Of a DNA stretch of 64,000 nucleotides, positions 8,734 through 50,305 are shown in pieces. A program made the position numbers and the translations under genes. Position 1 is the stretch's first letter. Each line of letters starts with the position of its first letter. This stretch comes from Algoriphagus sp. Y33 (lineage in GTDB: Bacteria; Bacteroidota; Bacteroidia; Cytophagales; Cyclobacteriaceae), in assembly GCF_014838715.1 (NCBI RefSeq), contig NZ_CP061947.1, positions 1,116,001 to 1,180,000 of the forward strand. Reading direction: 5' to 3'. The notes below the pieces were generated by a model that was not told the origin of the DNA, searched no databases, and saw nothing but the letters and a program-made list of their open reading frames with translations.

Positions 8734-9945
8734 TTGAAAATTCCTTTCAACAAACCTTACCTTTCAGGAAATGAACTCAGATACATAGAGGAGGCAATTG
8801 CGCTGGGTAAAATCTCCGGCAACGGGGAATTCACCCGTCGTTGTCAGGAGTTTTTCCAAATACGTTACGGATTTCGGAAATGCCTACTGACTACAAGTTG
8901 TACTGATGCACTGGAAATGGCCGCAATACTTCTGGATATAAGGCCGGGAGATGAGGTAATCATGCCAAGCTACACTTTTGTCTCAACCGCCAACGCCTTT
9001 GTCCTGCGGGGGGCAAGAATTGTATTCGTGGACAGCTGTTCGGACCGTCCAAATTTGGATGAAGCACGTATAGAGGAATTTATTACTCCAAGGACCAAGG
9101 CAATTGTGGCGGTACACTATGCCGGTGTTGCCTGTGAAATGGATGTGATTATGGATATTGCCGGAAGACATAATTTGTTTGTAGTGGAGGATGCTGCCCA
9201 AGCTATAGACAGCTACTTCAAAGGAAAGGCGCTGGGGAGTATAGGACATTTGGGGACGATGAGTTTTCACGAAACCAAAAACATCCAATGCGGAGAAGGA
9301 GGGATGCTTATGATCAATGACCCTGGGATGATTAAAAGAGCGGAGAGGATCTGGGAAAAAGGCACCGATAGGGTAGCTTTTTTTAGAGGAGAGGTTGACA
9401 AATACGGTTGGGTGGATATTGGGAGTTCATTTATGCCCTCCGAGCTTAATGCTGCTTATCTTTGGGCACAATTGGAAAATTTGGATAAAATCCAGGAAAG
9501 AAGAAAGGCTATTTGGAATGATTACGCTAGGGTATTTAGCGGAGATATTGATGTTCCCAATGTCTTGAATTCTGATTATATTGAGGTTTTCAAGAGTTTA
9601 AAATTGAAAATTGAAAATTTGGATTCGTCATTGCGAGGAGGCTTTTTGGCTGACGAAGCAATCACTAATAATGAACCACTATCAATTTTACATTCTACAT
9701 TCCCTGCTAACCACCACCTTTTTTATCTCCTTTTCCCTTCCTTAGCAAGTAGAACTGCTTACACTGCTGCCTTAAATGAAAAGGGGATTCTAGCAGTTTT
9801 CCACTACCAAAGCCTTCATAGATCGGCATACGCTAAAAAATACTTTCCAAATCAATGCCAACGTGAATTGCTTAATTCCGACCGCTATTCCGACTGCTTA
9901 CTTCGCTTACCCTTGTTCTATGAATTGCCGGAGTTGAGTAAGTAA
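8734..9945 (+). CDS. dTDP-4-keto-6-deoxyhexose aminotransferase, WecE-like, with an in-frame repeat insertion
   Basis: A 403-residue PLP-dependent DegT/DnrJ/EryC1/StrS sugar aminotransferase. Visible motifs are IPFNKPYLSGNELRYIEEA at the N-terminus, TTSCTDALEMAA, PGDEVIMPSYTFVSTANAF, VVEDAAQAID (PLP ring contact), and SFHETKNIQCGEGGM with the Schiff-base lysine at about residue 188. ELNAAYLWAQLE is also typical. The start is TTG 8734. It should aminate a dTDP-4-keto-6-deoxy sugar, whose product the WecD-like neighbour could acetylate. About 40 residues near 285-325 look foreign: they are encoded by a palindromic genomic repeat inserted without breaking the frame. Whether activity survives is unknown. 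Confidence 0.82.
   Translation: MKIPFNKPYLSGNELRYIEEAIALGKISGNGEFTRRCQEFFQIRYGFRKCLLTTSCTDALEMAAILLDIRPGDEVIMPSYTFVSTANAFVLRGARIVFVDSCSDRPNLDEARIEEFITPRTKAIVAVHYAGVACEMDVIMDIAGRHNLFVVEDAAQAIDSYFKGKALGSIGHLGTMSFHETKNIQCGEGGMLMINDPGMIKRAERIWEKGTDRVAFFRGEVDKYGWVDIGSSFMPSELNAAYLWAQLENLDKIQERRKAIWNDYARVFSGDIDVPNVLNSDYIEVFKSLKLKIENLDSSLRGGFLADEAITNNEPLSILHSTFPANHHLFYLLFPSLASRTAYTAALNEKGILAVFHYQSLHRSAYAKKYFPNQCQRELLNSDRYSDCLLRLPLFYELPELSK
9592..9705. repeat. REP-like palindromic element inserted in frame in the WecE-like gene
   Basis: The core contains CGTCATTGCGAGGAGG (9626-9641) and GACGAAGCAATC (9652-9663), resembling the CGTCATTGCGAG...CGAAGCAATC extragenic repeats known from many bacteria. It is flanked by A/T runs (AAATTGAAAATTGAAAA before, ATCAATTTTACATTCTACAT after) that look like intergenic sequence. 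It interrupts the conserved aminotransferase C-terminal domain between the SGDIDVPNV and PANHHLFYLLF segments, yet the frame stays open. Confidence 0.65.
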
Positions 9946-11086: not shown

Positions 11087-11102
11087 AACTCTGATTATAT
11101 AG

Positions 11103-11205
11103 AAGATAGATGCTTAGTATTGACTCAAGTATCAAGATTTTAGAATCAGTAATCAGTGTTCAGTCCCGGTCGACCATAGACAATCCATAACTACCAGCCC
11201 AATTT
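11103..11205. repeat. Degenerate copy of the intergenic repeat
   Basis: Contains CAAGTATCAAGATT and then TAATCAGTGTTCAGTCCC. The first block matches repeats at 8550 and 18007. It lacks the clear pyrimidine half. Non-coding. Confidence 0.3.
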
Positions 11206-16798: not shown

Positions 16799-18007
16799 AT
16801 GCACCGTATAATATTATTGCTGGATTTTGCTGAAGAATATAGCAAATCATTGCTAAAAGGAATCAGTACCTATTCCGGTAAAAACGGACAATGGACATTT
16901 TGCCGTATGCCTTTATACTATCGGGAAATGATGGGAGTAAAAGGCATCCTCAAATGGGCAAAGGAATGGAGGGCAGATGGAATCATCGGTCAGCTGTATA
17001 ATGAAATGGAGGAGGAGTTTATTGATGGTGGGATTCCTGTCATAGCTCAGGATTTTAAAGAACGGTTTTCCAAAATCCCCAATATCACAGGTTCTTACAG
17101 GGAAACTGGAGTGATGGGAGCCGAATACTTTCTGAGGAAGGGGTATTACAATTTTGGGTTTTATGGGTTCAACACAATTGTTTGGTCGCGGGAGCGTGCG
17201 GAAGGATTCGAATCCGCTGTCAAAAAAGCAGGATATCAGGTCAATTATTTTGAGCATAAAAAAGCCCGATCCACGGATATTTGGTATTACAAAAGCAAAT
17301 CTCTTAGTAAATGGCTGAAGAACTTACCCAAACCTGTTGCCTTAATGGCATGTGATGATAATCAGGGCGTGCATATTTTGGAAGCATGCAATCACAATAA
17401 GATTAGGGTGCCTCAGGAAGTGGCGGTATTGGGAGTGGACAATGATGTGACATTCTGCGAACTTGCCGATCCGCCATTGTCGAGTATAGTTCTGGATATA
17501 GAGAGGGGAGGCTTTGAGGCTGCGCAGGTTCTTCATGAAATGATCAGAACCGGCGAGAGTAACTACCGAGATGTGATTGTTCCCCCCCTCAAGGTAATTA
17601 CCCGATCCTCTACTGATATGTTTGCTTCCTCTGATGCTTACGTTGCGGAAGCCCTCACTTTTATTCACAGGAATATCGATAGAAATATTTTGGTGGATCA
17701 GGTAGTCAAGGAAGTGCCTCTTTCCCGAAGAGCCTTGGAGAAGCGTTTTTTGCAGATTACAGGACTTCCTATATATAAGTATATCACCAAGGTCAGAATG
17801 GAGAAATTGGCACAGAAACTTTTGAGTTCAGATCAGAGTATCTTTGAAATAGCCGTGGATTTGGGGTTCCAAGACAGCAATAATATCGCCAGACAATTCA
17901 AACAATTGATGGGCTATGCCCCCGCTGAGTATAGAAAGCGATACGGTCTGAATTCGTTGTGGGAAGTGGGAGGTAGCAAGAGGCAAGAAACAAGTAGCAA
18001 GACATAA
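16799..18007 (+). CDS. XylR-like AraC family regulator with a LacI-type sensor domain
   Basis: A 402-residue cytoplasmic regulator. The N-terminal 270 residues are a periplasmic-binding-protein-like sugar sensor (IILLLDFAEEYSKSLLKGIS, VAVLGVDNDVTFCELADPPL, SSIVLDIERGGFEAA). The C-terminal 100 residues are an AraC double helix-turn-helix (NILVDQVVKEVPLSRRALEK, IFEIAVDLGFQDSNNIARQF, GYAPAEYRKRYG). This is the XylR layout, in which a sugar in the sensor domain switches DNA binding. It follows the permease by four bases and precedes the SusC/SusD pair. The final ten or so residues (SKRQETSSKT) are encoded by an intergenic repeat element running into the gene. Confidence 0.85.
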   Translation: MHRIILLLDFAEEYSKSLLKGISTYSGKNGQWTFCRMPLYYREMMGVKGILKWAKEWRADGIIGQLYNEMEEEFIDGGIPVIAQDFKERFSKIPNITGSYRETGVMGAEYFLRKGYYNFGFYGFNTIVWSRERAEGFESAVKKAGYQVNYFEHKKARSTDIWYYKSKSLSKWLKNLPKPVALMACDDNQGVHILEACNHNKIRVPQEVAVLGVDNDVTFCELADPPLSSIVLDIERGGFEAAQVLHEMIRTGESNYRDVIVPPLKVITRSSTDMFASSDAYVAEALTFIHRNIDRNILVDQVVKEVPLSRRALEKRFLQITGLPIYKYITKVRMEKLAQKLLSSDQSIFEIAVDLGFQDSNNIARQFKQLMGYAPAEYRKRYGLNSLWEVGGSKRQETSSKT

Positions 18008-18180
18008 GTATCAAGATCCAAGAGTTAAGATCCAATTTTCAATTTAACTTTTTAACCAGTAACCTTTTAACCTTGAGAAACCTGACAACCTTCTAATAGT
18101 ATGAAGAGTCAGGAAACAAGAGTCAAGATCCACCTCCCAATTTAGCCCTTAACCTTTTTTTAACCTTTAATCCCTTAACC
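17973..18180. repeat. Intergenic repeat element, two tandem units, overlapping the 3' end of the regulator gene
   Basis: Purine-rich blocks (GTAGCAAGACATAAGTATCA, GATCCAAGAGTTAAGATCC, and CAGGAAACAAGAGTCAAGAT in the second unit) are followed by pyrimidine-rich ones (TTTTTAACCAGTAACC, CCCTTAACC). The units are joined by CTAATAGTATGAAG at about 18092, equivalent to CTAGTAGTATGAAT in the copy at 7643-7860. The first bases are translated as the end of the regulator. Confidence 0.6.
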
Positions 18181-48004: not shown

Positions 48005-48952
48005 TTAGAATTTGAAATTTGGAAGGTTCTCCAAAATATCCCCGGTCATGGCATCAAGATCATAATCATGTTTCCACCCCCAGTCTTGTCTTGCACATGA
48101 GTCGTCAATACTATCTGGCCAGCTATCCGCAATTGCCTGGCGGAAATCGGGATTGTATTGGATTTTGAAATCAGGAATATGATTCAGTATGCTTTGGTAG
48201 ATTTCTTTTGGAGTGAAGTGCATCGCAGCCAGGTTATAGCTAGAGCGGATTTTTATAGACTCACCCGGAGCATTCATAAGATCCAAGGTGGCTTTGATTG
48301 CATCAGGCATATACATCATAGGCAGTGAACTGTCTTCGCGAAGGAAGCAATCAAATTTTTCCCCTGCCAATGCTTTGTGATAGATATCCACCGCATAATC
48401 TGTGGTGCCTCCACCGGGGAGAGACTTGTATCCGATCAAGCCTGGGTACCGAAGGCTGCGAACGTCCACATTGTATTTCTGAAAATAGTATTCGCACCAC
48501 CTTTCTCCGGCCTGCTTCGAGATGCCGTACACCGTATTGGGTTCTTTGACGCAATACTGAGGCGTATTGATTTTTGGTGTATTGGGTCCAAAGACAGCAA
48601 TAGAGGATGGCCAATAGATTTTGTTAAGATTAAATTCTCTGGCCAGCTCCAGAACATGAAGTAAACTTTCCATGTTCAGCTCCCATGCAAAGAGTGGTTT
48701 TTTCTCACCCACTGCGGAAAGCACTGCCGCCAAATGATAGATTTGGGTGATTTTTTCGTTTTTGACAAGGTTTCTCAGACCTTCTTTATCCATCACATCC
48801 AAAACTTGAAAGCGGCAAAAGTCAAACTTGGATTGTGCGGATTGGTTGAGGTCTGTGGCGATTACTTGCTCTGCACCAAACTGATCTGCCAAGGACTTAG
48901 TGAGTTCCGAACCCAATTGGCCTGCAGCGCCTATTACTAGGATTTTTTCCAT
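48005..48952 (-). CDS. tdh: L-threonine 3-dehydrogenase, short-chain (SDR/epimerase) type
   Basis: A 315-residue NAD-dependent enzyme of the extended SDR fold. NAD-binding is ILVIGAAGQLGSELTKSLAD; ATDLN follows; catalytic YGISKQAGE with the preceding WPSSIAVFGP matches this bacterial TDH family, which is distinct from zinc-type Tdh. SLRYPGLIGYKSLPGGGTTD and WPDSIDDSCARQDWGWKHDY are also family-typical. It oxidises threonine to 2-amino-3-ketobutyrate, which the divergently encoded Kbl would cleave to glycine and acetyl-CoA. I choose ATG 48952; TTG 48967 would add five residues. Confidence 0.9.
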   Translation of the reverse strand: MEKILVIGAAGQLGSELTKSLADQFGAEQVIATDLNQSAQSKFDFCRFQVLDVMDKEGLRNLVKNEKITQIYHLAAVLSAVGEKKPLFAWELNMESLLHVLELAREFNLNKIYWPSSIAVFGPNTPKINTPQYCVKEPNTVYGISKQAGERWCEYYFQKYNVDVRSLRYPGLIGYKSLPGGGTTDYAVDIYHKALAGEKFDCFLREDSSLPMMYMPDAIKATLDLMNAPGESIKIRSSYNLAAMHFTPKEIYQSILNHIPDFKIQYNPDFRQAIADSWPDSIDDSCARQDWGWKHDYDLDAMTGDILENLPNFKF

Positions 48953-49001
48953 TGATATTTCTTTCAAAATCTACCCTAAAGCCGGGCTCTGGGTTTTTGT
49001 T

Positions 49002-49009
49002 TATATTTG
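49002..49009 (+). promoter_or_regulatory. Possible Bacteroidota -7 promoter element for kbl
   Basis: TATATTTG fits the TAnnTTTG box of Bacteroidota sigma-ABfr promoters and lies 100 bases before the kbl ATG. No good TTTG -33 box was found at the expected spacing, so this is tentative. Confidence 0.3.
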
Positions 49010-49108
49010 GGTTTGCGATTGCAAAAGTAAGAAAAAACTGCTTCCAGATCAGGATATTTGACCAAAGGAAGCAGACGTTTTTGAATAACATAAAATCAAC
49101 TAGCTATC

Positions 49109-50305
49109 ATGTACGATCAGTTCAAACCCAAATTGCAAGAAGAACTTAAGGGAATAGAGGACGCAGGCCTTTTCAAGAAAGAGCGTGTGATTACATCTCC
49201 ACAATCGGCAGAAATCACCATTGCAGGCGGGCAAAAAGTTTTGAATTTTTGTGCCAATAATTACTTGGGGCTTTCTTCCCATCCAAAAGTAATCGAAGCA
49301 GCCAAGGCAGCAATTGATTCCCATGGATTTGGAATGTCTTCCGTGCGCTTTATTTGCGGCACTCAGGACATTCATAAGGAATTGGAAAAGAAAATTTCTG
49401 AGTTCCTAGGCACAGAAGACACCATTTTGTACGCGGCGGCTTTCGATGCCAATGGGGGAGTGTTTGAGCCTATTTTAGGCCCTGAAGATGCGATTATCTC
49501 AGATGCATTGAATCATGCTTCTATTATCGATGGTGTCCGTCTATGTAAAGCAATGCGTTTCCGATATGAGCACAATAATATGGAAGATCTGGAATCCCAG
49601 CTGAAGGAGGCCATTGCCAAAGGAGCTAAGCAAAAAATCATTGTGACTGACGGGGTTTTCTCTATGGACGGGACAATTGCACAGTTGGACAAGATCGTGG
49701 AATTGGCTGAAAAGTACGAAGCTTTAGTCATGACAGATGAGTGCCACTCAACTGGATTTATGGGCAAAACAGGAAGAGGAGTTCATGAGCATTGCGGCGT
49801 AATGGGAAAAATAGATGTTATCACCGGGACGCTTGGAAAGGCACTTGGAGGAGCTTCGGGGGGATTTACCTCAGGAAGAAAGGAAATTATCGAATTGCTT
49901 CGCCAGCGTTCTAGGCCATATTTGTTTTCCAACACCTTGGCGCCATCGATCACAGGAGCTTCGATAGCAGTGTTTGATTTATTGTCTGAAACTACTGAGT
50001 TGAGAGATAAGCTGGAAGAGAATACAACCTATTTCCGTGAGAAAATGACCGCTGCCGGCTTTGATATCAAACCAGGCGAGCATGCAATTGTACCGATTAT
50101 GCTGTATGATGCAGTTCTTTCACAGCAAATGGCCGAGAAGGTTCTAGAGAAAGGAATTTACGTGATAGGATTCTACTATCCAGTGGTACCAAAAGGTCAA
50201 GCTAGAATCCGTGTGCAGATTTCTGCGGGGCATGAACGGGTACATTTGGATCAGGCGATTGCGGCTTTCACGGAAGTAGGGAAGGAATTAGGAGTGATTG
50301 AGTAG
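49109..50305 (+). CDS. kbl: Glycine C-acetyltransferase (2-amino-3-ketobutyrate CoA ligase)
   Basis: A 398-residue PLP enzyme of the alpha-oxoamine synthase family. [75 protein letters not shown] and [19 protein letters not shown] (containing the PLP lysine) are all present, and the length is standard. It converts 2-amino-3-ketobutyrate and CoA to glycine and acetyl-CoA. It is divergent from tdh across 156 bases, so the two-step threonine degradation pathway is complete. A terminator follows at 50381. Confidence 0.95.

Follow-up and report, generated by a model that had tools for sequence, protein, structure and literature searches.

The window, a stretch of 64,000 nucleotides from a genome assembled as a single contig of 6,378,979 bp, contains a wecE-like gene whose product scored above the curated cut-off of WecE family models (WecE/RffA aminotransferase), and the predicted structural model has the WecE fold. 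Inside this gene, positions 9592-9705 (codons 287-324) are a composite of non-coding repeats, with heptameric inverted arms enclosing a CGTC-type REP. The features of the locus are as follows.

8734..9945, plus strand: wecE-like gene (dTDP-4-amino-4,6-dideoxygalactose transaminase), 403 aa, with TTG as the listed start
9526..9708, plus strand: hypervariable interval, codons 265-325, 61 aa in the window allele
9594..9614, plus strand: 5′ AT-rich heptameric arm (period 7), read as SLKLKI, forming an inverted pair with 9682-9702
9626..9663, plus strand: CGTC-type REP monomer of 38 bp between the arms, read as SSLRGGFLADEAI
9682..9702, plus strand: 3′ AT-rich arm, read as SILHSTF, forming an inverted pair with 9594-9614

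A preliminary description, made from the window alone, had proposed a palindromic extragenic-type repeat lying in frame in a WecE-like aminotransferase and flanked by A/T-rich DNA. Both elements were borne out: the REP lies within the open frame 8734-9945, and the two 21-nt arms are inverted and 76% complementary. The monomer carries the CGTC tag at its start, and its 38 bp place it within the 20-40 bp palindromic class; CGTCATTGCGAGGAGG at 9626-9641 and GACGAAGCAATC at 9652-9663, the 3′ end of the monomer, are both in frame in wecE. The hypervariable interval showed a period-7 signal (z 3.1 relative to dinucleotide shuffles). The fold of the 114-nt segment had only a slight advantage over shuffled sequences (z −1.74; matched by 10 of 200 shuffles), and the fold-energy z of the whole interval was −0.5. 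A strict period-7 scan of the window detected no stretch; a looser scan returned two, at 17935-18078 and 11096-11166, neither within wecE, and period 7 stood out in the window among periods 4-11.

The wecE frame stays open through the repeat segment, and the window protein retains the positions that are invariant among 54 aligned homologues, including K182 of SFHETKN. In comparisons of the N-terminal part with 13 other alleles of the genus, pN was 0.08-0.15, whereas pS was saturated at 0.75-0.85. In the predicted model, pLDDT falls below 50 at residues 296-317, within the insert, which is thus predicted to be a disordered stretch on a conserved enzyme core. The genome contains six WecE matches, and a close second copy was not seen among those listed, because the next one is only 35% identical. 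In our reading, wecE is under purifying selection and the repeats are translated as one of its loops.

To place the insert among relatives, we determined the length of the interval bounded by two conserved motifs, ...W.DY and N.HLFY. In a broad collection, represented by the best 80 of 580 loci, the interval was 22-25 aa in 75 loci; the other five comprised one of 20 aa, one of 8 aa, two without a motif match and one of 117 aa that is a pattern artefact. The added residues are thus not conserved across genera, as the preliminary description required. Locus L124, among these 80, bears the title Algoriphagus aquimarinus; a homologue with a short interval is thus present within Algoriphagus as well. 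For the genus we searched 72 genomes, of which 65 had a match, and read the 30 best loci, the alleles for which DNA was available (seven on the minus strand). Here the interval was about 39-96 aa, with an uninterrupted in-frame reading in each allele read, and it was already about 39-46 aa in alleles that carry no repeat cassette. The earlier estimate of about 40 added residues therefore holds against the broad collection (61 versus 22-25 aa) but not within the genus, where the net gain is only about 15-22 aa. A Belliella baltica protein (P0097) has a cassette-free interval of 44 aa, so the expanded interval extends beyond Algoriphagus.

Repeat cassettes were present in 14 of the 30 genus loci, all in frame and of at least six kinds, and absent from the other 16:

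REP with AT arms: L029
GAGCGGAGTCGAGG-type repeat: L035, L048, L051
CCAACTTCC heptamers: L031
GACAACCG heptamers with CGATAGCTATCGG palindromes: L038
AATGAAGAATTAAT-type: L036
TTTAAAGTT-type: L030, L037, L042
Tandem AT arms: L044
Less clear cassettes: L032, L033, L034

A period-7 z of at least 2 was seen in 12 of 14 cassette loci versus 2 of 16 cassette-free loci; cassette fold energies were mixed, with z from +0.6 to −3.9 (12 measured). AT-rich heptamer arms also occurred in alleles without the REP. The protein homologues comprised the 120 listed of 8,000 scored proteins, and all 120 were used. The close ones that bear a name are mostly from Algoriphagus, on which basis we place the window's organism in that genus or an allied one. 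Among them P0002, from a named Algoriphagus genome and 81% identical overall, has a REP cassette homologous to that of the window but with six additional residues, and P0003 has a related cassette that has diverged, so the window REP is no fresh insertion. P0082 and P0100 have 40-aa intervals, and P0099 has the same interval as L051. L051 is the first of two wecE matches lying about 12 kb apart in one genome (G070:C13:35174-36469 and 48711-49565); the second alignment ends before the interval. A second hypervariable loop lies between SLHKS and LPNSDR in P0017, P0033, P0036 and the wecE of G052 (L153), measuring 33-37 aa in the three proteins and more in G052, compared with the usual ~14 aa.

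We examined cassette turnover on a tree of 110 WecE proteins built without the interval, after dropping 10 of the 120 (four without a readable interval and six near-duplicates); cassette kinds for its rows were assigned by eye from the peptides. The 10 cassette states required 35 changes, against a minimum of 9 and a shuffle average of 66, so the labels are clustered yet change often. Close relatives illustrate this: P0023 and P0040 are 97.7% identical outside the interval and carry unrelated cassettes, as do P0032/P0054 (92%), P0050/P0110 (92%) and P0006/P0039 (90%), and P0013, P0020 and P0035, at 92-94% identity, carry three kinds. At the DNA level, L030 and L048 share 86% of the N-part and 88% of the C-part, and their cassettes differ. 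The loop site is a hot spot, occupied in many genus alleles by one repeat family or another, a picture at odds with the single unusual invasion that the preliminary description had envisaged.

One way to account for such a site is adaptive diversification, in which the loop would be a variable module of a glycan enzyme, its turnover selected and the repeats its raw material. Quick turnover at a single site beside a conserved core, the cassettes in 14 of 30 genus loci and the second hypervariable loop of some alleles would all fit. This explanation sits poorly, however, with the 16 genus alleles that lack a cassette, with the predicted disorder of the insert and with cassette sequences that are nothing but repeat DNA. 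As an enzyme expected in the cytoplasm, WecE would not expose the loop directly to phages. We regard adaptive diversification as unlikely.

We next considered where the repeats lie outside wecE. The 16-mer REP core occurs once in the window, exactly (0.26 matches expected at up to three mismatches). The genome search proposed in the preliminary description placed it at 28 sites in the 6.38-Mb genome, the gene included (17 exact, 11 at one mismatch); its reversed control matched nowhere. Within 3-kb loci, 25 of the 28 copies lay in no open frame longer than 140 aa, and another (L016) lay 5 residues into a long frame, probably ahead of the gene start. With the 16-mer core as the only sequence searched, two of the 28 were in frame inside genes, namely wecE and a DsbD-like gene. 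Several other REP copies were followed by an inverted copy. Across the genus, the core was found in 45 of 72 genomes, with one reversed-control match in total.

The other repeat classes were distributed differently. An 18-mer from the AT arm (up to one mismatch) occurred at four places in the window's genome, two of them overlapping in wecE, and the class-A arm 24-mer at one. With up to two mismatches, the class-A 24-mer occurred at 35 places in 13 of 72 genus genomes (reversed control 2); of the 30 with loci, nine fell within six wecE genes, and the remaining 21 lay outside any open frame longer than 88 aa. The GAGCGGAGTCGAGG pattern (class F; up to two mismatches, reversed control 1 match) had 19 places in G016, one of them within wecE, and in G026 its sole place was wecE. 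For class C and class D heptamers we read 30 loci each (reversed controls 0 and 6, respectively). One lay in wecE (L205) and one, L212 (G052:C5:249930), in frame within an ABC-transporter-ATPase-like gene, named by eye; in the other frames of at least 180 aa the repeat was at most 71 residues from the upstream stop, ahead of the apparent gene start. G040 had one further class-D match in wecE. In G014, a single contig of 4.8 Mb, 22 of 28 class-D matches fell within 111 kb containing wecE, as did 9 of 12 arrays (hand count, with matches up to 50 bp apart merged). The window's own genome gave zero matches to class C and D heptamers, so the clustering of these arrays near wecE applies to relatives. 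With the AT arm rare and classes C and D absent, the spacers of the window's genome are unsupported as the source of the repeats.

These distributions bear on a simpler account resembling the Rickettsia case, in which REPs insert approximately at random and the window allele is one survivor. The REP is dispersed in the genome, has a second in-frame copy in DsbD and is the only cassette part that is common there; intragenic CGTC-REPs have also been published for other bacteria (PMC3733652). Random insertion nevertheless leaves unexplained why unrelated families converge on one position, and why class-A arms occur in long open frames solely at wecE (9 of 30 loci). We consider it improbable as a full explanation of the site. 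A decaying gene, which the preliminary description had also raised, or an assembly artefact would match the repeat-rich, intergenic look of the insert but is effectively ruled out by the open frame in a single-contig genome, the retained invariant residues, the low pN with saturated pS, the lack of a close second wecE copy among the matches listed, and the homologous and related inserts of P0002 and P0003. Removal of the segment before the mature product by RNA or protein splicing, for which the inverted arms at both ends are the sole argument, is extremely improbable, given that the alleles read keep the segment in an uninterrupted frame and that an Rfam search of the window at gathering thresholds gave zero matches, on which ground the reading as an RNA family was dropped.

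Exchange between alleles was examined by comparing the parts of the gene on either side of the interval. L035, which carries a cassette, and the cassette-free L043 are sisters in the N-part (support 100/95 for protein and 100/96 for DNA), and their windowed DNA identity drops from 0.76-0.96 in the N-part to 0.52-0.61 in the C-part. In trees of the C-part, L043 is placed with L046 (99/97 and 100/99), and L035 joins L031 and L051, though weakly supported (81/16 and 74/71); the L051 cassette is of the same kind as that of L035. Approximately unbiased (AU) tests rejected L035 and L043 as C-part sisters (p 0.0078 for protein and 0.0017 for DNA). Among 10,962 triplets of 29 loci, 33 switches at the interval passed a Bonferroni threshold of 0.01, L035 being the query in 22, and none was significant when the break was placed inside the N-part; the triplets are non-independent and the C-part evolves faster. 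The pair was picked after pair scans and before the triplet and AU tests, and L044 was omitted from the triplet test and from the DNA and protein AU tests because its second insert misaligns the C-part. One exchange at the interval joint, that of L035/L043, is thus well supported.

Other arrangements gave less. L043 with L046 in the N-part was rejected by protein (p 0.031) and not by DNA (0.106). AU tests did not reject L035, L043 and L046 together in the C-part (0.053 and 0.13), L042 with L047 in the C-part (0.18 and 0.13) or, by protein, L030 with L048 in the N-part (0.47). We also tried wide chimerism across WecE proteins, using protein trees of 84 of the 110 homologues. Of the 14 cases that arose from placing seven groups on each of two trees, nine were already clades, and the remaining five AU tests gave p 0.07-0.74, none significant, so this candidate was rejected; they included P0113, with its N-sisters in the C-part (0.07) and with its C-sisters in the N-part (0.195). 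The recombination claim is therefore limited to L035/L043, because the other candidates were not significant, and a wider rule of exchange at the interval is inferred.

The explanation that we favour, and think reasonably likely, is that a tolerant loop acquires dispersed repeats, which are then exchanged through recombination, while selection keeps the frame. An older expansion would have rendered the wecE loop tolerant, and repeats of the kinds present in the spacers of these genomes would then have entered it. Recombination would have swapped cassettes in their entirety, in one or more cases along with the 3′ part of wecE, and selection at the level of the enzyme would have retained stop-free, in-frame versions; a benefit of the cassettes themselves would be unnecessary. 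Our confidence is lowered by how scarce the AT arm is in the window's genome and by the lack of class C and D heptamer matches there. More tentatively, the loop might be an exchange joint at which spacer-type cassettes swap the loop and C-terminal part between lineages. If so, a protein-coding site would behave as an intergenic spacer, giving modular variants of a glycan enzyme.

The wecE loop is best read as a variation on the known in-frame REP/RPE phenomenon. CGTC-tagged REPs are described as intragenic in several species (Di Nocera et al. 2013, PMC3733652). They share with the window REP the CGTC at one end, a length of 20-40 bp, many mostly intergenic copies, frequent dimers and some intragenic copies, and Bacteroidetes are among the phyla listed; the main text does not contain the name Algoriphagus. 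The same-site case described there is recB, in which two Xanthomonas species have different REPs at about the same site, whereas the wecE site is shared by at least six kinds of repeat in one genus. The background of that article also cites the RPEs of Rickettsia, palindromic repeats translated in frame in proteins that are probably functional. The preliminary description had likened the insert to these elements, and the effect is indeed similar, the insert being translated in frame as part of a gene that is conserved outside it. The likeness is one of description; the phylum is another, and RPEs are reported in many genes (PMC3733652), whereas in wecE several families hit one gene.

Heptamer direct repeats such as TAACTGA are described mostly from spacers, with a suggested role in gene rearrangement (MacGregor 2015, PMC4679880). 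They too form period-7 arrays, some in Bacteroidetes and one set near the end of purC, but wecE has other heptamers, a recurrent internal coding site and paired inverted arms. For short repeats that switch class again and again at one site in a gene, the closest parallel is the P6b stem of the Nostoc tRNA-Leu intron, a fixed in-gene site whose repeat motifs fall into two classes (those of class II being 7-nt) and have shifted class repeatedly (PMC4476775). It differs in being an untranslated RNA intron, and its authors report finding no recombination in the stem-loop. Searches of the open-licence PMC literature turned up no paper on repeats in Algoriphagus wecE, and no protein-coding position that a series of unrelated repeats occupies throughout a genus. 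Isolated examples of in-frame repeat insertion are already known, those of Rickettsia being the best; here a single enzyme position took up several unrelated families within one genus, with close relatives as natural controls. The loop thus lets one test how non-coding repeats turn into protein and how fast they turn over, and whether repeats serve as recombination joints in and around glycan genes.

Two further REP loci deserve mention. At L016 (G000:C1:4199390-4200191) roughly 400 bp separate a Y1-transposase-like ORF of 184 aa from a REP dimer, and GCAGTCTGAAGACTGC palindromes occupy the gap. A search of the window's genome for Y1 transposases gave six matches, five above the cut-off; with one near a REP dimer and other palindromes intervening, we claim no link between these enzymes and REP movement. 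The second in-frame REP (L027, G000:C1:4760777-4760792) lies in the variable linker of the DsbD-like protein, which is 102 aa long here and 72-112 aa in the 19 relatives read.
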